From positions 1 to 25,723 of IMG/VR virus record IMGVR_UViG_3300025687_000287: a stretch of 25,723 nucleotides of DNA, one strand, 5' to 3'. This document shows, in pieces, positions 5,843-24,818 of the stretch. This DNA comes from a virus. The translations under genes were made by a program, and so were the position numbers. Each line of letters begins with the position of its first letter. Position 1 is the stretch's first letter. The notes below the pieces were generated by a model. That model was not told the DNA's origin and searched no databases. It saw nothing but the letters and a program-made list of their open reading frames with translations.

Positions 5843-6010
5843 ATGATTATAAATAGTATTAAAAACATTATTGTAACTAAAAATGATAAGATATTAAAGC
5901 TTGAGGAAGACTATACAATTGAAAATAATACTTTATTTTTCAACATTCCTCCTGAAGCTAATGATAAAATATCAATAATAAAGAGAGAAGATGTCGAAAC
6001 AAACAGTTAA
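5843..6010 (+). CDS. 55-residue stand-alone beta-module ORF
   Basis: The ATG is two bases after the gp7-position stop, and the frame runs 55 codons, overlapping the next gene by 20 bases. Residues about 6-49 follow the pattern of the C-terminal module of the next protein: a strand, a short turn, L-x-x-x-x-DYTI-x-x-NTLFFNIPP-x-A-x-DKISII. That matches DYTVSGTNLTFNTAPAASAEIQV in the 318-residue protein and two more copies downstream. It is therefore a single free module, or the remnant of a longer fibre gene. A TATAAATA box sits just inside its 5' end (5848-5855), so a transcript from that box would not carry this start. Translation would need read-through from upstream. No Shine-Dalgarno is evident. 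Confidence 0.5.
   Translation: MIINSIKNIIVTKNDKILKLEEDYTIENNTLFFNIPPEANDKISIIKREDVETNS
5848..5855 (+). promoter_or_regulatory. Late promoter box TATAAATA before the accessory segment
   Basis: An exact TATAAATA lies just after the gp7-position gene, inside the first codons of the 55-residue ORF and 135 bases before the fibre-like gene at 5991. It could drive the fibre/halogenase segment independently of gp25-gp6. The match is exact, but it lies in possible coding sequence in an A/T-rich genome, so confidence is moderate. Confidence 0.5.
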
Positions 6011-6947
6011 CGTAGGAACAATTGCAAATGACGGTACTGGTAGTACAATACGTGCTGGTGGTCAAATCATAAATGCAAACTTTACAGAAATTTATAACGC
6101 TGTAGGTGATGGTACAACAATTGCGTTTGATATTTCAGGTGCTACAGCAGGTCAAACTTTAGTTTACAACGCTTCAACAAATAAATTCGAACCAGGTACA
6201 GCGACTGCTACATCTTCTTTTACAATTGCTGGTGATGGTGGATCAAATCAAGTAATTACTACAAATGATACTTTAACTGTACAAGGTGGTACAGGTATTA
6301 CCACAACAGGTGTTAATACAGATGTTCTTTCAATTGCAATAGATAGTACAGTTGCAACATTAACAGGTTCACAAGTTTTAACAAATAAAACAATTAGTGG
6401 TGCTTCAAACACATTATCAAATATCGGTAATGCAAGTTTAACAAATTCAACAATTGCGATCGGTGGTATTACTTTCAATTTGGGTGATACAGACTCTACC
6501 CCAGCACTTGACTTATCAGACGCAACAAATTATCCTACAAGTTCATTAACAGGTCAAATTACAAATGCTCAGTTAGCAGGTTCAATAGAAAATTCAAAAT
6601 TATCAAATTCAATAATCACAATTGTTGATGATAGTTCAACAGCTGCTACAATAGATTTAGGGTCAACTTTAAAAATTGCTGGCTCAGGTGTAACAACATC
6701 AATTTCAGGTGATACTTTAACAATCACTGGTGCTTCATTATCATATTCAACAGGTACATTTACAGGTGACGCTTCAACAACTATCTTTACGATAAATAGT
6801 GGACATACAGTAAATAGTATTTTAGTTTTTATAAACGGTATTTGTTTAGTGCCTACAGATGACTATACAGTATCAGGAACAAATTTAACTTTCAACACGG
6901 CGCCAGCAGCGTCAGCTGAAATACAAGTAAGGTATTTACCAGTTTAA
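5991..6947 (+). CDS. Fibre-like virion structural protein
   Basis: A 318-residue, Thr/Ser/Gly/Asn-rich beta-repeat protein. The N-terminus (VNVGTIANDGTGSTIR...INANFTEIYNA, about residues 6-38) is the common start of many phage fibre and baseplate-attached proteins. A short GQTLVYNASTNKFEPG motif follows at about 54-69. The middle carries fibre repeats such as LTGSQVLTNKTI and IAIGGITFNLGDTDSTPALD, the second nearly identical to part of the 781-residue fibre. An IVDDSSTAATIDLG...LKIAGSG...TTISGDTLTI-type unit comes next. Residues 257-318 form the DYTV beta module found in three other proteins of the window. It probably trimerises as a short tail or side fibre. It overlaps the 55-residue ORF by 20 bases. 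Which part of the virion it attaches to cannot be read from sequence. Confidence 0.8.
   Translation: MSKQTVNVGTIANDGTGSTIRAGGQIINANFTEIYNAVGDGTTIAFDISGATAGQTLVYNASTNKFEPGTATATSSFTIAGDGGSNQVITTNDTLTVQGGTGITTTGVNTDVLSIAIDSTVATLTGSQVLTNKTISGASNTLSNIGNASLTNSTIAIGGITFNLGDTDSTPALDLSDATNYPTSSLTGQITNAQLAGSIENSKLSNSIITIVDDSSTAATIDLGSTLKIAGSGVTTSISGDTLTITGASLSYSTGTFTGDASTTIFTINSGHTVNSILVFINGICLVPTDDYTVSGTNLTFNTAPAASAEIQVRYLPV
6438..6554 (+). repeat. Fibre block shared with the 781-residue fibre, copy 1
   Basis: A 117-base block encoding 39 residues around AIGGITFNLGDTDSTPALD and DATNYPTSSLTG. It matches 23959-24075 with five amino-acid differences and is about 17.5 kb away from it. Confidence 0.78.
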
Positions 6948-6956
6948 GGATAATAT

Positions 6957-8090
6957 ATGGGAAGTATAACTAGAACATTAGCAAATAATTTAACTTCATC
7001 ACAAGGTGTTGATACTAATAATTTTAGAAATATAATTATCAATGGTGACTGTTCAATAGCTATAAGAGGCACATCTACTTCAGGTATATCTGGCGACGGT
7101 TATTATACTTGCGATAGATGGAATGTGGGTGCAGGTAGTTTTGGAACTTGGACACAAACACAAGAAACAGATGTTCCTTCTGGTCAAGGTTTTACAAATT
7201 CAATTAAAATGGATTGTACAACTGCTCAAGCTTCACCAGCTGGTAGTTCTTTGATTTATTTAGAACACGCTATTGAAGGACAACATTTACAAAGAATACA
7301 ACAAGGTACAGCTAATGCCCAACCTACTACATTATCTTTTTGGCACAAACATACAAAAACAGGAACAAACATTGTTGAGTTATTAGACGCTGATAATTCT
7401 AACGCTGTAAGTGGTTCATATACTCAATCAGTATCAGATACTTGGGAATATTCAACAATAACTTTCCCAGCAGGTACATCAGGTACTTTTGATAATGATA
7501 TTAACCGTTCTTTAAGAATAAGAATTATAATCGGTTCAGGTTCAGATTACACTTCTGGAACACTTGCTACAACTTGGCAAACAACTATTACAAGCGCAGA
7601 CAGATATGTTGGGCAAGTAAATAACGCAGATAGTACATCAAATAATTTTCAGATTACAGGTCTTCAATATGAAGTAGGAAGTACAGCAACAGATTTTGAA
7701 TTTTTACCAAGAGAAATACAAGAAGCTAGATGTGCTAGATACTTTCAAAGAATAGGTGGAAGTATGGGTCAATACAGATTTATGCCTTCTACAGGTATGA
7801 GTTGGTCAGGAGCGGCACATTTAGCAACGCTTTATTTACCGTTTCCAATGAGAACACAAGCAACAACTTCATATTCAGGAACTTGGACATTATCAGGAAC
7901 TTCCGCTGACGAAGCTGGTTCTACACCAGGAGCGACATTACAAACAATGGACGCTGGATTTAGTTCTTCATTTCCTTCCAATTATCCTTACAGATTTTCT
8001 TGGGTTACAACAGGAGGAAGTGCAGGAAAAGGAATATTAATTTATACAGACGCTAACTCACCTACTTTGCAATTTAGTGCGGAGCTATAA
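6957..8090 (+). CDS. Putative receptor/carbohydrate-binding fibre protein
   Basis: A 377-residue protein of a type frequent in marine phages. A short N-terminal lead is followed by FRNIIINGDCSIAIRGTS (residues 23-40), a DRW (about 53-55), and a jelly-roll-like body containing TTLSFWHKH and SDTWEYSTITFPAGTSGTFD. The linker GLQYEVGSTATDFEFLPR (about 238-255) and EARCARYFQRIGG then lead to a separate C-terminal beta domain of about 115 residues. The body resembles carbohydrate-binding jelly rolls fused to fibres, and the C-terminal domain would be the variable tip. The role is probably host-surface recognition, inferred from family resemblance and the neighbouring fibre gene. It follows that gene by nine bases with an AAGGATAA ribosome binding site overlapping the stop, and precedes the 74-residue gene by two bases. 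Confidence 0.75.
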   Translation: MGSITRTLANNLTSSQGVDTNNFRNIIINGDCSIAIRGTSTSGISGDGYYTCDRWNVGAGSFGTWTQTQETDVPSGQGFTNSIKMDCTTAQASPAGSSLIYLEHAIEGQHLQRIQQGTANAQPTTLSFWHKHTKTGTNIVELLDADNSNAVSGSYTQSVSDTWEYSTITFPAGTSGTFDNDINRSLRIRIIIGSGSDYTSGTLATTWQTTITSADRYVGQVNNADSTSNNFQITGLQYEVGSTATDFEFLPREIQEARCARYFQRIGGSMGQYRFMPSTGMSWSGAAHLATLYLPFPMRTQATTSYSGTWTLSGTSADEAGSTPGATLQTMDAGFSSSFPSNYPYRFSWVTTGGSAGKGILIYTDANSPTLQFSAEL

Positions 8091-8092
8091 TT

Positions 8093-8317
8093 ATGAAAAT
8101 AACTAAAGATAATATATCAACAGCAGAATATCTTTACTTGGCAGACCAGCCAGGTGATAGTCCATCATCATATTCAAAATCAGGTATAAAAGTAATTTGT
8201 ACAGGTCATTCTCTCACACACATATTACCATTAACTACAGATAATACAGATTACAATACACTTATGGAATGGGTTGCTGACGGTAATACTATTACAGATA
8301 ACGATCCAAATCCATAA
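8093..8317 (+). CDS. Small phage protein of 74 residues
   Basis: A 74-residue acidic/polar protein. It has no signal peptide or membrane segment. The C-terminal part reads YNTLMEWVADGNTITDNDPNP; endings of the form WVADGNTI-x-D are common in small proteins, or ends of larger proteins, that accompany phage fibres. It begins two bases after the putative receptor-binding protein, so it may be its chaperone or a small accessory subunit. It ends 16 bases before the halogenase. I do not recognise a defined family. The link to the fibre rather than the halogenase is inferred from spacing and the C-terminal motif. Confidence 0.65.
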   Translation: MKITKDNISTAEYLYLADQPGDSPSSYSKSGIKVICTGHSLTHILPLTTDNTDYNTLMEWVADGNTITDNDPNP

Positions 8318-8333: not shown

Positions 8334-9773
8334 ATGAATATTGTTATTATAGGTGGTGGAACAGCTGGATGGTCAACAGCATTAAATTTTTCTTCAAAGA
8401 CCAAATCAAACATTACAGTTATTTCATCTAAAGAAATACCTATCATTGGTGTAGGTGAAAGTACAACAGGTTTATTTTCAGATTTAATTAAAACTAATTT
8501 AGACGAAATAGATTTTTTCAAACAAACAGGTTCTACATTTAAATTAGGAATTAAACACGTTAATTGGAAAAATGGTAACGACTATTTTAATTCTCCTTTA
8601 GGGTACGATATTGATGATTATGATTACTATAGATTATATCATATTGCTGAAAATAAAAAAATAAATCTAATTCAATCTGCTTTAATGGAAAATAATCAAT
8701 TACCTTTTTGTAATAATATTCCTATTGAAATAGAACACACAGCATATCATTTAGATACATTTAAAGTTGGTCAATATATAAAAGACTTTTTGTTGAAAGA
8801 AAATAAAGTAAATCATATTGAAGAAAAAATATTAAAAGTAAATAGAGATGAAAATGGTTATATAACAAGTTTAATTACAGAAAGTCAAAAAGAAATTAAA
8901 GCAGACTTATTTGTTGATTGTTCAGGTTTTAAAAGAGTGTTAAGTGATGATGTGCCTTTTATTAGCTATGAAGATAACTTATTAGTTAATAGAGCAGTAA
9001 CTTTTCATATACAAAACAAAGAGAATACTATTATAAAAAATTATACACAAGCAACAGCATTAAAACACGGTTGGATTTGGGAGATACCATTACAGCACAG
9101 AATGGGTTGTGGATATGTTTTTTGTGATAAGTTTATAAGTGATGATGAAGCTATACAAGAGATAGAAGAATATATTGGCGAAAAAATAGAAGTACAAAAA
9201 ATCATACCTTTTAATTCTGGTCGTTTAGAAAAGATTTATGATAAAAATGTTTTGACAGTTGGTCTTTCAAGTGCCTTTGTTGAACCGTTAGAGGCAACTT
9301 CTATACATATGTCAATATTTCAAGTAAATTACTTTATACATTGTTTAGAACAATCTGATTTAAAAAACTATAATAAAAACATATGTGATAAGTGGGACAA
9401 CATAAGAGATTTTATATTACTACATTATAGGTCGGAAAGACAAGATACCGAGTTTTGGAAAGAAGCCTCTTCAGACAATAGACTAACTGATAATTTAAAA
9501 TATATGTTAAATTTATGGAAACAAAGACCACCTATTGGTGATGATTACAATGTTTTCTCAAATTTAGCATTAGGTAACACTTTATGGTTACAAATATTAT
9601 TAGGAATGAACATATTAGATAGTTCAATGATAAAAGAGGACTTAATCAAAAGAGGTCTGTATGACAAGGCAGAAAATGAATATATTAAAGTATCTAAAGA
9701 TATGGAATACATTAAAAGAAACGCTATAAATAATAATGACTTTTATAAAAAATTGTTAAAGGAGATTGTATAA
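8334..9773 (+). CDS. Flavin-dependent tryptophan halogenase family protein
   Basis: A 479-residue protein of the tryptophan halogenase family (PrnA/RebH type; PrnA is 538 residues). These enzymes use FADH2 and oxygen to make HOCl or HOBr, which reaches the substrate through a catalytic lysine. Visible here: the FAD-binding GGGTAG (residues 7-12), IGVGEST (38-44), TFKLGIKHVNW (68-78) with Lys70 aligning to PrnA Lys79, VDCSGF (194-199), and the halogenase WxWxIP motif as WIWEIP (247-252). EPLEATS (317-323) has Glu320 at the PrnA Glu346 position and Ala321 where PrnA has Ser347. HYRSERQDTEFW matches the family C-terminal half. Catalytic residues are therefore intact. No flavin reductase gene is in the window, so reduced FAD must come from elsewhere. 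The gene lies between fibre genes and gp8. Free tryptophan, another indole or a peptide could be the substrate; sequence does not decide. Confidence 0.92.
   Translation: MNIVIIGGGTAGWSTALNFSSKTKSNITVISSKEIPIIGVGESTTGLFSDLIKTNLDEIDFFKQTGSTFKLGIKHVNWKNGNDYFNSPLGYDIDDYDYYRLYHIAENKKINLIQSALMENNQLPFCNNIPIEIEHTAYHLDTFKVGQYIKDFLLKENKVNHIEEKILKVNRDENGYITSLITESQKEIKADLFVDCSGFKRVLSDDVPFISYEDNLLVNRAVTFHIQNKENTIIKNYTQATALKHGWIWEIPLQHRMGCGYVFCDKFISDDEAIQEIEEYIGEKIEVQKIIPFNSGRLEKIYDKNVLTVGLSSAFVEPLEATSIHMSIFQVNYFIHCLEQSDLKNYNKNICDKWDNIRDFILLHYRSERQDTEFWKEASSDNRLTDNLKYMLNLWKQRPPIGDDYNVFSNLALGNTLWLQILLGMNILDSSMIKEDLIKRGLYDKAENEYIKVSKDMEYIKRNAINNNDFYKKLLKEIV
9725..9732 (+). promoter_or_regulatory. TATAAATA box inside the halogenase 3' end
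   Basis: An exact TATAAATA lies within the last codons of the halogenase, 72 bases before gp8, and is the first of three exact boxes in 64 bases. Being inside coding sequence it may be coincidental, but the cluster argues that gp8 transcription restarts here. Confidence 0.4.
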
Positions 9774-9776: not shown

Positions 9777-9780
9777 TAAG

Positions 9781-9804: not shown

Positions 9805-11274
9805 ATGCCAGCAATTATAACAAACAAATTCAGAATCCACAATGCAGAACAATTTGTGGAATCATTCTCAGAAGCCTCACCAAATGTATATTATTTGGGT
9901 ATAGGCCGACCTCAAGCATTTACTACTTCTACAAGAGGTGATAGTAGAACAGTAAACGAGGGATCAGATTCATCACCATTAACACCTGTAGATTCAGTAC
10001 AAGACGAGTTTTATACTTTTGATGATTTACTTTCAGCTAAAAAAGTAACAACTTCAGATGTATCTTATGTAATTCCAAGAAGAAACTGGACAACTGGCAC
10101 AGTTTACGATTATTACAGACACGATTACGGTAACAGAATCACAGGAACAACTACTACTCAAACAGCAAATAGTGGTGCTTCTTCTTTATGGGACGCAACT
10201 TTCTATGTTGTAACAGGTGATTATAATGTTTACAAATGTTTAGATAACAATGGTGGTGCAGCTTCAACAGTAGAGCCATCGGGTACATCAACATCTATTC
10301 TTACAACAGGAGATGGTTATAAGTGGAAATATATGTACTCTTTATCAGCTTCTCAACAAGTAAACTTTTTATCCACAGATTTTATGGCCGTTGCAACAAA
10401 CGGTACAGTAAGTTCAGCAGCTGTTGACGGTGCAGTTAACATTATTAAAATTAAATCTGCTGGCTCAGGTGCTTCAGTTTCAGGTACACATACAAATGTA
10501 CCAATAAGAGGTGACGGTTCAAGTGGTGAGTGTTCAGTAACAACTTCAGGTGGTGTTGTTACAGCAGTAACAGTTACAACTCCAGGAACAGGTTACACAT
10601 ATGCTTATGTTAGAAATGCAGATATAGTAACTGCTGGTGCAACTGATTTAACAGGTGCAGAATTAGATGTAATTATTGAGCCAAAAGGCGGACACGGATT
10701 TAACGCAGTAAAAGAATTAGGTGGTTATTATGTAATGTTAAACACTAACTTTGAGGGTGCAGAAACTTCAAACTCAGGTGACTTTACAACTCAAAACGAC
10801 TTTAGAAGAATTGCATTAATTAGAGATCCAGACTCAGGTGGTTCAGCTGCCTCAGCAACTACACTAAGAGGTGTTAAAGTAGTAAGATTTGAATCCTCAC
10901 CTACTCCAGGTTCTTTCCAAGTAGATGAAGAAATCAATCAAGCAACTACTGGTGCTGTAGGTAAAGTTGTAGAGTGGGATTCAACAAACAGACTTTTATA
11001 CTACGTACAAACAAGATTTAATGATGAAGGTGTTGATAGTAATGGTAACTTAACAGCTTTCTCTGGAGTAAATGTAATAACAGGTCAAACTTCAAGTGCA
11101 ACTGGTACACCAACAAGTACAACTGAAACAGTTGATAGTGTTTCTTTAACTTCAGGTTATGCAGGTGCAGAAATTGACGCTGATACAGGAGATGTTATTT
11201 ACATTGAACAAAGAGCGCCAATTACAAGAGCTTCGGATCAAACTGAAAACGTTAAATTAATAGTTGAATTTTAG
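9805..11274 (+). CDS. gp8: Baseplate wedge subunit gp8
   Basis: A 489-residue counterpart of T4 gp8 (334 residues), the dimeric wedge protein that joins the gp10-gp7 complex during wedge assembly. Motifs shared with T4 gp8 are visible in order: AIITNKFR (residues 3-10; T4 AIVTSKFR), LGIGRPQ (31-37), YVIPRRNW (88-95; T4 AVIPRRDW), EPSG...GDGYKWKYMYSL (157-180; T4 GDGYVWEYLFEI), and a C-terminus YIEQRAPITRASDQTENVKLIVEF that matches T4 YMENRPPIIMAMDQTEEINILFTF almost position by position. The roughly 150 extra residues are beta-rich insertions in the second half. They include a GYTYAYV-type repeat (about 212-270) and a GAVGKVVEWDSTNRLLYY unit like those in the neighbouring large proteins. It is preceded by late promoter boxes and AAAGG. 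Confidence 0.93.
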   Translation: MPAIITNKFRIHNAEQFVESFSEASPNVYYLGIGRPQAFTTSTRGDSRTVNEGSDSSPLTPVDSVQDEFYTFDDLLSAKKVTTSDVSYVIPRRNWTTGTVYDYYRHDYGNRITGTTTTQTANSGASSLWDATFYVVTGDYNVYKCLDNNGGAASTVEPSGTSTSILTTGDGYKWKYMYSLSASQQVNFLSTDFMAVATNGTVSSAAVDGAVNIIKIKSAGSGASVSGTHTNVPIRGDGSSGECSVTTSGGVVTAVTVTTPGTGYTYAYVRNADIVTAGATDLTGAELDVIIEPKGGHGFNAVKELGGYYVMLNTNFEGAETSNSGDFTTQNDFRRIALIRDPDSGGSAASATTLRGVKVVRFESSPTPGSFQVDEEINQATTGAVGKVVEWDSTNRLLYYVQTRFNDEGVDSNGNLTAFSGVNVITGQTSSATGTPTSTTETVDSVSLTSGYAGAEIDADTGDVIYIEQRAPITRASDQTENVKLIVEF

Positions 11275-19043: not shown

Positions 19044-20549
19044 ATGGTAAAAAAGGTAAGATCAGAAAATACAACATTTGGCAGCGATACTCATAGCTTT
19101 AAAGTACCAATGGGTACTACAGCACAAAGAGTTAGAGAAGGATCAGCAGAAGCTGGTCAAATGAGATATAATACAAGTTTAGCTGCATTAGAATATTATA
19201 ATGGTTCTTCGTGGGTGGTATTAGATGTGGCACCAGAAATTACAAGTATTTCTCCATCAACTATTGTTGAAGACGGTTCTACTACAACTGAAGTAACAAT
19301 TACAGGTTCAGGTTTTAATGCTGGTACAGCAGTTTCTTTAGTATCTGATGACGCAGCTAGCACAATCACACCATCAACTGTAACTTTTGTAAACTCTACT
19401 ACACTTAGATTTACTTGTAGTGCAGGTCAAATTAGTGCAGTGACAGGACTAGGTGCTGATTTTAATTCTGCTAAATCACCTTTTGATGTAAAAGTAACTT
19501 CAGCGGGTGGTAAAGCAAACACATTAGCAAATGCTCTTAGTATCAACTCACAAATTTATTGGATAACAGCAGGTGGTAACCTAACAAACACATTCTCAGG
19601 AAATAGATCAGTAAGCGCTACTGTAGAAGCTAGAGATCCAGAATCACAAGCAATAACTTACTCAGTTACAACAGGTTCTTTACCAGCTGGTGTTTCACTA
19701 AACGCAAACACAGGTGCTATTACAGGAACAGATTCTAATCCAGGTACAGTAACAACATATAATTTTGAAATTACTGCTACAGACGGAACAAATACAAACA
19801 ATCAATATTTTAATATTGTAAGTTATCCACAAACAACAGAAACATTTACATCCACAGGTACATTTACTGTGCCAGATGGACTAACTTCAGTTGATGTATT
19901 AGTAGTTGCTGGCGGTGGTGGCGGTGGCGGACAATGTAATTTAGGTGGCGGTGGAGGAGGCGGAGGCCTTATCTATAGACCAGGTTTACCTATTACTCCA
20001 GGTTCTCCAATTGCTGTTACTGTAGGTGGTGCTGGTAGCGGAGGTTGGAACGGTACTGACCCCTCTCAAAGAGGCGGAACATCTCAATTTGCTGCTTTAG
20101 CTGCTATTGGTGGCGGTGGCGGTGGTGCCTTTTCAGGTGGTGCTCCAGGAGGTTCAGGCGGTGGTGGAGGAGGTAACTCATTCCAACAACCAACAACTCA
20201 AGGTGGAACAGGAACACAACCTCAACAAGCAGGAGAATCAGGCTCTTATGGATTTGGAAATCCAGGAGGAACAGGTGCTCAAGGTAACTTTGGTCCTGGC
20301 GGTGCTGCTGGTGGCGGAGGTGCTGGCGGAAGAGGAAGTGATTTCCCAAATGGAGCTGGCGGCGCAGGAAGAAATTACAGTATATCAGGCTCACCTGTAG
20401 ATTATGCAGGCGGTGGCGGTGGTAACAATAACGGAGCAGGAAATGGCGGAGGTGGTGCTTGTGGAAATCCAGGTACAGCTAACCGAGGCGGCGGCGGCGG
20501 TGGAGATAGCCAACCAGGCGGATCTGGTATCGTTATCGTACAATACTAA
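19044..20549 (+). CDS. Glycine-rich adhesin-like tail fibre protein
   Basis: A 501-residue multidomain protein. Residues 37-60 (AGQMRYNTSLAALEYYNGSSW) are a short motif frequent in phage fibres. Residues about 63-155 look like an IPT/TIG Ig-like domain (ITSISPSTIVEDG..TEVTITGSGFNAGTAV). Residues about 172-262 resemble a second Ig/cadherin-like domain (LPAGVSLNANTGAITGT...YNFEITATDG). From about 267 (FTSTGTFTVPDGLTSVDVLVVAGGGGGGG) to the end is a glycine-rich domain with runs of five to eight Gly, closing with GGSGIVIVQY. Such domains may pack as polyglycine-II sheets; in T-even phages the glycine-rich gp38 adhesin tip binds outer-membrane receptors. Receptor binding is the likely role, by analogy. 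The GGN codons raise local G+C well above the neighbours. A strong hairpin follows the stop. Confidence 0.82.
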   Translation: MVKKVRSENTTFGSDTHSFKVPMGTTAQRVREGSAEAGQMRYNTSLAALEYYNGSSWVVLDVAPEITSISPSTIVEDGSTTTEVTITGSGFNAGTAVSLVSDDAASTITPSTVTFVNSTTLRFTCSAGQISAVTGLGADFNSAKSPFDVKVTSAGGKANTLANALSINSQIYWITAGGNLTNTFSGNRSVSATVEARDPESQAITYSVTTGSLPAGVSLNANTGAITGTDSNPGTVTTYNFEITATDGTNTNNQYFNIVSYPQTTETFTSTGTFTVPDGLTSVDVLVVAGGGGGGGQCNLGGGGGGGGLIYRPGLPITPGSPIAVTVGGAGSGGWNGTDPSQRGGTSQFAALAAIGGGGGGAFSGGAPGGSGGGGGGNSFQQPTTQGGTGTQPQQAGESGSYGFGNPGGTGAQGNFGPGGAAGGGGAGGRGSDFPNGAGGAGRNYSISGSPVDYAGGGGGNNNGAGNGGGGACGNPGTANRGGGGGGDSQPGGSGIVIVQY

Positions 20550-24362: not shown

Positions 24363-24818
24363 GTGGCAACAATTATAAAATTAAAAAGAAGTACAGTAGC
24401 TTCTACAGTACCTACTACAAGTGATTTAGCTGACGGCGAAGTTGCAGTAAATACGGCCGATAGAAAAGTTTATGTTCGTAATGGTGCAAGTATAGTTGAG
24501 GTTGCTAATAATACTTCAGCAGGTTCTACAGATTTAACAAGTGTTGGTACAAATATTACACCTGATACAGATAATACTTACGATATAGGTTCTTTATCAG
24601 CAACATTTAGAGATATATTTGTTGGAAGAAGTGTTAAAACAAGAGTTGATGTTTACACAAGATCAGGTGGATTAGTTTCTGCCGCTGGTGAATTTGCTTT
24701 TAAAGTTAATTCAGCAAGAAAATTATTTGATGAAGTTTACACAGCTTCAAGTGGATTAAGCACTAAAGCAATTAGTATAACTAACTTTGATGATAACAAT
24801 CCAGCATATGAGTTTTAA
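24363..24818 (+). CDS. Short fibre protein with Mtd-like N-terminus (GTG start)
   Basis: A 151-residue protein starting with GTG, placed seven bases after AGGAG (24351-24355) and giving MATIIKLKRSTVAST, parallel to the start of the 781-residue fibre. Residues about 1-50 (LKRS...LADGEVAVNTADRKVYVRNG) resemble the N-terminal attachment domain of phage Mtd receptor-binding proteins. A DNTYDIGSLSATFRDIFVG motif at about 71-89 is a frequent fibre connector. The C-terminal 60 residues (TRVDVYTRSGGLVSAAGEFAFKVNS...ISITNFDDNNPAYEF) form a small domain of unknown type. No reverse transcriptase or template repeat is in the window, so there is no sign of retroelement-driven variation. It is followed eight bases later by another fibre gene with a GGAG site. 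Confidence 0.78.
   Translation: MATIIKLKRSTVASTVPTTSDLADGEVAVNTADRKVYVRNGASIVEVANNTSAGSTDLTSVGTNITPDTDNTYDIGSLSATFRDIFVGRSVKTRVDVYTRSGGLVSAAGEFAFKVNSARKLFDEVYTASSGLSTKAISITNFDDNNPAYEF

Follow-up and report, generated by a model that had tools for sequence, protein, structure and literature searches.

A flavin-dependent halogenase gene in a putative receptor-binding cassette of marine phages

The halogenase gene and its tail operon

We analyzed a single contig of 25,723 bases (hereafter, the window), which makes up the whole of its virus record. Pfam and phrog matches gave the gene order gp25, gp6, wedge, gp9/gp10-N-like connector, fibre, small ORF, halogenase, gp8, and VrlC-like gene. The features discussed below are as follows:

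5991..6947, + strand: gp9/gp10-N-like fibre connector (PF07880, E = 3e-7; phrog_677)
6957..8090, + strand: fibre, 377 aa (phrog_4492, E = 1.6e-51)
7740..8087, + strand: fibre tip, approximately residues 262-377, with three invariant tryptophans (tip HMM, IMG/VR scan, and tryptophan count)
8093..8317, + strand: small protein of the cassette, 74 aa, encoded between the fibre and halogenase genes; all five cassette loci have it, with 65-82% identity
8135..8179, + strand: insert YLADQPGDSPSSYSK, residues 15-29 of the small protein, confined to loci with this halogenase
8334..9773, + strand: flavin-dependent (tryptophan-type) halogenase, 479 aa (PF04820, phrog_2928, AlphaFold2 model, dN/dS)
8352..8372, + strand: FAD-binding motif GGGTAGW, residues 7-13, of the GxGxxG type
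8541..8543, + strand: Lys70, the catalytic lysine position, invariant in 32 phage homologues
9072..9089, + strand: WIWEIP, residues 247-252, an instance of the WxWxIP motif (defined in PMC8407142)
9291..9293, + strand: Glu320, the catalytic glutamate position (EPLEATSIH), invariant in the 32-homologue alignment
9805..11274, + strand: baseplate wedge gp8, the downstream boundary of the cassette (PF09215; phrog_438, E = 2.7e-143)

The order gp25, gp6, wedge, fibre slot, gp8, and VrlC-like gene is that of T4-like Pelagibacter myophages and is the same in Mosig and HTVC008M. By gp8, the closest isolates are Pelagibacter phage Mosig (72% identical) and then HTVC008M (54%). The phage is marine and resembles known SAR11 (Pelagibacter) phages; as the record is a single contig, the host is deduced from these relatives. 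Elsewhere in the window, the product of 19044-20549 combines Ig-like domains (TIG and He_PIG) with a C-terminal domain rich in glycine (PF21722) and is probably another fibre or adhesin. That of 24363-24818 weakly matched PF18454, the N-terminal domain of the major tropism determinant, with a score below the cut-off (E = 0.0024).

The ORF at 8334-9773 (+ strand, 479 aa) is exactly as described in an initial annotation of this DNA, which had assigned it to the tryptophan halogenase family. Its product matched PF04820 (E = 2.1e-102; 343.8 bits against a cut-off of 21) over positions 1-446 of the 458 in the profile, and phrog_2928, "tryptophan halogenase" (E = 2e-110). The FAD motif, WIWEIP, Lys70, and Glu320 cited in that annotation were all present, together with GVGEST at residues 39-44. 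Alignments with three solved halogenases (9luq, 9lu2, and LooH) paired Lys70 and Glu320 with the catalytic Lys and Glu of these enzymes, and both were invariant among the 32 phage relatives. The register of the phmmer match, which sets residue 304 on PrnA residue 330, brings Glu320 onto Glu346 of PrnA in a gapless reading; Lys79 and Glu346 are the catalytic lysine and glutamate of PrnA. Ala321 had been read as a hint of a substrate other than that of PrnA, an argument that we dropped because alanine is the rule here: at least 90% of the 32 phage homologues have it, as does 9lu2.

Structure prediction, which had been suggested as a check, yielded the expected fold. An AlphaFold2 model built from the 32-relative alignment had a mean pLDDT of 90.6 and a pTM of 0.89, and its nearest solved structures were all flavin halogenases (VIA Z of 43.4 for 9ltb, 42.8 for PyrH, and 40.9 for PrnA), with further matches to BrvH (40.6), MibH (39.4), and VirX1 (37.3). 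The match to PrnA (2ard) aligned 468 residues with an rmsd of 2.6. Simple Nei-Gojobori counts between distinct relatives gave dN/dS values of ~0.14-0.26 for the halogenase gene and 0.15 for the gp8 gene. The halogenase gene is under purifying selection, similar to gp8. Judged by its sequence, it encodes a full-length, well-preserved member of the PF04820 flavin-dependent halogenases.

We consider it very improbable that this is a flavin enzyme that no longer halogenates, such as a hydroxylase or a binding protein. The catalytic glutamate has been lost in some phage relatives, with glutamine at this position in the S-RIM44 and S-PM2 homologues, and Glu to Gln inactivates a flavin halogenase (PMC8407142). 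An NCBIfam scan of the window enzyme returned weak superfamily matches only, to flavoprotein monooxygenases and to the maturases LodB, GoxB, and QhpG. However, the enzyme retains the catalytic Lys and Glu as well as the FAD and WxWxIP motifs, all of them conserved within its clade, and the model matches active halogenases with Z ~40. Since the catalytic residues are intact, loss of halogenase chemistry is unlikely. The genes of S-RIM44 (L004, 6001-7437) and S-PM2 (L005, 6001-7476) are annotated as tryptophan halogenases, yet read EPLQATSIH.

The GC3 of the halogenase gene (0.167) is close to the 0.11-0.16 of its neighbours and gives no sign of a recent outside origin. A GTDB scan recovered only three bacterial relatives, 36-38% identical and all gammaproteobacterial. 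In agreement with the initial annotation, no flavin reductase was found among 20 window proteins scanned with Pfam. ATAAATA motifs did not support a late promoter of the halogenase's own: the 16 found, although all on the + strand, compare with 15.7 expected by chance.

Linkage of halogenase, fibre tip, and small protein

The halogenase had been placed between a fibre gene and gp8. The fibre (6957-8090) does lie upstream and gp8 (9805-11274) downstream, but this placement omitted the 74-aa ORF at 8093-8317, which separates the fibre gene from the halogenase gene and proved central to the linkage described below. Between their wedge and gp8 genes, Mosig has genes for a fibre, a 161-aa protein, and a tail chaperone, and Melnitz has a connector gene, a fibre gene, and a small gene; wedge and gp8 directly adjoin each other in HTVC008M. 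Across the 80 IMG/VR loci with the nearest gp8, the content of this slot was highly variable, and one of the 80 (L096, the same contig as L010) contained a halogenase. The slot is therefore a site at which receptor-binding genes are exchanged, with the halogenase as a rare tenant.

The N-terminal part of the fibre models as a CBM4-like carbohydrate-binding fold (Foldseek match to CBM4-2, TMt ~0.6; model pLDDT 77, with low confidence in the tip part). For the C-terminal tip, an HMM built from the four distinct cassette tips found those tips only, the next matches having E ~1e-3, and isolated phages gave no match. The tips of all four distinct cassettes have three tryptophans each, whereas 84 unrelated tips average 1.0, six of them having at least three. 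Because of their homology, the four cassette tips amount to about one observation, and the count is suggestive only.

The small protein belongs to a family whose members come after fibres of this type in many phages, podoviruses included. Matches in isolated phages were weak and partial, and a plasmid search gave none. The insert was absent from 143 of 149 family members examined. We dropped the tryptophan of the EWVADG motif as a cassette-specific target, because the motif is present in 145 of the 149, nearly all without a halogenase.

Two IMG/VR scans, one using a degenerate DNA pattern of the insert and one using the fibre tip, each yielded exactly four contigs, and these were the same in both; since the insert pattern and the tip HMM were built from the cassettes themselves, this exclusiveness is partly by design. 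What is informative is that no copy of insert or tip without the halogenase turned up, in scans that rest on short conserved patterns and can miss relatives. A scan for the halogenase subclade gave the same four contigs and then nothing above ~51% identity. The contigs are L001, L002 (identical in sequence to L001), L010, and L176, so that with the window there are four distinct cassettes (window, L001/L002, L010, and L176) on two backbones. In all of these, the adjacent small protein and the tip co-occur with the halogenase, and gene order was kept while the fibres diverged to ~50% identity. As a control, no halogenase was found near any of 117 insert-less, fibre-adjacent small proteins (for 88 of them, representing 71 distinct sequences, the downstream sequence covered was 1.5 kb or longer).

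Three of the four contigs have the T4-like order of fibre, small protein, halogenase, and gp8. These T4-like cassettes share descent, so their placements are not many independent events; the tree was a quick FastTree whose support values are not displayed. The fourth contig, L176, lacks gp8 and the wedge protein. Its fibre, small protein, and halogenase are 50%, 68%, and 72% identical to those of the window, with a 3-bp gap between small protein and halogenase. A 112-aa virion protein of L176 is 56-57% identical in the Pelagibacter podoviruses HTVC203P, HTVC100P, and Lederberg, and the gene after its halogenase is 51% identical in HTVC203P and HTVC115P. The cassette thus occurs in two tail backbones, one T4-like and one resembling Pelagibacter podoviruses, the virion type of the 7.7-kb L176 contig being deduced from its tail genes only.

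Both backbones also provide empty sites. HTVC115P has the fibre gp63, the small protein gp62, and gp61, which matches the gene after the L176 halogenase, without a halogenase in between. HTVC115P gp63-gp62 and HTVC100P gp38-gp37 share the fibre family, small-protein family, and order of the cassette but, unlike it, have no insert, a different tip, and no halogenase. On the T4-like side, L254 uses the same slot, and its fibre N terminus is 66% identical to that of the window, closer than that of L010. However, its tip is different, its small protein lacks the insert, and gp8 follows directly with no halogenase. DNA homology between L254 and the window breaks at window position 7708 and resumes at 9780, just before gp8. 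Given this break and the differences in tip, insert, and halogenase, it appears that a single block comprising tip, small protein, and halogenase was exchanged.

Such a block could move merely through frequent recombination at the fibre slot, the three genes having no functional link. The high variability of the slot among the 80 nearest gp8 loci is compatible with this idea, as is the fact that only two backbones are known. Yet the order has been kept and the halogenase has remained under purifying selection despite fibre divergence to ~50% identity, and the insert was found nowhere else in the IMG/VR pattern scan, and we regard transfer without function as unlikely. As the three scans converge and insert-less controls lack a halogenase, we conclude that the halogenase belongs to a transferable receptor-binding cassette. 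The cassette was not described in the literature that we searched, and a search on halogenase together with bacteriophage virion returned nothing. The enzyme family and phage halogenases are already known; to our knowledge, the cassette context is the new part.

Fibre genes are also abutted by a second, separate halogenase lineage (L034, 5672-7180; L040, 1866-3380; L052, 4906-6423; L053, 6001-7518). There, the halogenase gene begins 0-2 bp after that of a fibre or small fibre-like protein, which ends in the module NTYDLGT..LRWRNIYT..GDYTIVEGEE, and is followed by genes that match fibres weakly.

Candidate substrates of the halogenase

Marine phages carry an abundance of halogenase genes, whose proposed biological roles one review calls speculative (PMC2984593); a further review says only that host metabolites could be altered by phage halogenases (PMC10452541). 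Because the cassette links its halogenase to a single tip and a single small protein, it offers two concrete candidate substrates and makes the question of the substrate testable. The initial annotation had suggested a virion or cell-surface function from the position of the gene. Location alone is weak evidence, because homologues in other phages sit elsewhere, but the suggestion is strengthened by co-transfer with the tip and small protein into an unrelated phage tail.

We tentatively favor a model in which the halogenase has become a fixed component of a transferable cassette and halogenates its cassette partners. The cassette consists, in this order, of a fibre distinguished by its C-terminal tip, a 72-74-aa partner distinguished by its insert, and the enzyme. 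Modification of a partner is the simplest model that explains the three-way linkage. It is possible, though we hold this more loosely, that the enzyme halogenates a product of its own swappable cassette, either the receptor-binding tip of the fibre or the small partner of the tip, and that such halogenation of a virion protein constitutes a host-recognition trait.

We infer the activity, halide, substrate, timing, and benefit of the enzyme as follows. Late in infection, during assembly, the halogenase would use FADH2, O2, and seawater halide to form HOX, which Lys70 would hold and Glu320 would help to direct. Host flavin reductases would supply the FADH2, given that the scanned window proteins included no reductase. 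A cassette partner would then be halogenated on an aromatic side chain, probably a tryptophan and less likely a tyrosine. The likeliest target would be one of the three invariant tryptophans of the tip. Alternatively, the small protein could be modified, at Trp60 or at the tyrosine of the insert, or could itself guide or present the target. Once modified, the tip would gain in receptor binding or in resistance to the environment.

A link specifically to the tip would also be explained if the enzyme modified the host surface component that the tip recognizes, resulting in superinfection exclusion or in release of progeny from debris. The CBM4-like fold of the N-terminal part of the fibre fits such a role. 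However, flavin halogenases are cytosolic enzymes that depend on FADH2, remote from the cell surface. In the model, the N terminus of the halogenase is the FAD-binding strand, so no export signal is expected. We think alteration of the receptor quite unlikely.

Somewhat unlikely, in our judgment, is that the gene is an auxiliary metabolic gene whose product acts on a free aromatic small molecule from the host, be it tryptophan, indole, or another metabolite, its linkage to the fibre reflecting suitability for the same host. PF04820 enzymes mostly use free Trp, indoles, and phenols as substrates (PMC8407142). The closest homologues, with 44-51% identity, have no link to fibres and occur mostly in the gp55-gp47 interval of marine T4-like phages, together with replication and 2OG-oxygenase-like genes. 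The ancestral substrate was therefore probably a different one. In jumbo cyanophages, halogenases belong to a predicted secondary-metabolite cluster (PMC7824862), and the halogenase of phage Mic1 is described as a middle-phase gene (PMC11237433). Because the nearest homologues are mostly in the gp55-gp47 gap and other phage halogenases are metabolite-clustered or middle-phase, a host small molecule is likely enough as a substrate. By itself, however, a metabolic role leaves unexplained why halogenase, tip, and insert are found only together and why the insert exists at all.

The gp55-gp47 gap holds a halogenase in many marine T4-like contigs (L011, L339, L341-L349, L354, L358, and L361-L366), sometimes two in tandem and often with 2OG-oxygenase-like genes. 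Other contigs (L032, L033, L037, L038, L072, and L087) carry several halogenases among many 2OG-oxygenase-like genes, which points to multi-step modification clusters.

If modification of a cassette partner is correct, halogenation would join the ways in which phages diversify their receptor-binding proteins, and halogenases acting on folded proteins would be gained. If it is refuted, the cassette still shows metabolic genes riding with host-range modules between unrelated phages.

Comparison with known halogenases

PrnA, RebH, PyrH, and Thal, the free-tryptophan halogenases of antibiotic biosynthesis, share the fold, FAD motif, WxWxIP motif, and catalytic Lys and Glu with the window enzyme. 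In contrast to them, the window enzyme is shorter (479 aa versus ~500-550) and is encoded in a tail operon. VirX1 of cyanophage Syn10 (PDB 6QGM) is likewise a phage-encoded PF04820 protein with the same fold (Z 37.3) and a catalytic Lys and Glu, although it is only ~26% identical to the window halogenase; it prefers iodide and acts on free aromatics in vitro (PMC8407142). In the Syn10 genome (L009, 5989-7512 and 7502-9094), VirX1 is CPUG_00131, annotated as hypothetical, and the adjoining gene annotated as tryptophan halogenase is a second, different one.

The halogenases of S-PM2, S-RIM44, P-SSM2, and HTVC008M belong to the same family and are 28-42% identical over the matched part, but they occupy other genome places and are not between fibre and gp8. 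Homologues in other phages lie in the gp55-gp47 gap, beside terminase genes, or among tRNA and hli genes.

The closest parallels to the proposed partner modification are MibH, SrpI, and ChlH, flavin halogenases that act on peptide-bound Trp, SrpI being guided by a leader peptide (PMC12615548, PMC10858898). Each is paired with a genetically linked peptide substrate, for which the tip and the small protein would be the candidates in the cassette, and MibH matches our model with Z 39.4. Their substrates are RiPP precursors, whereas the candidate substrate of the cassette enzyme is a virion protein.
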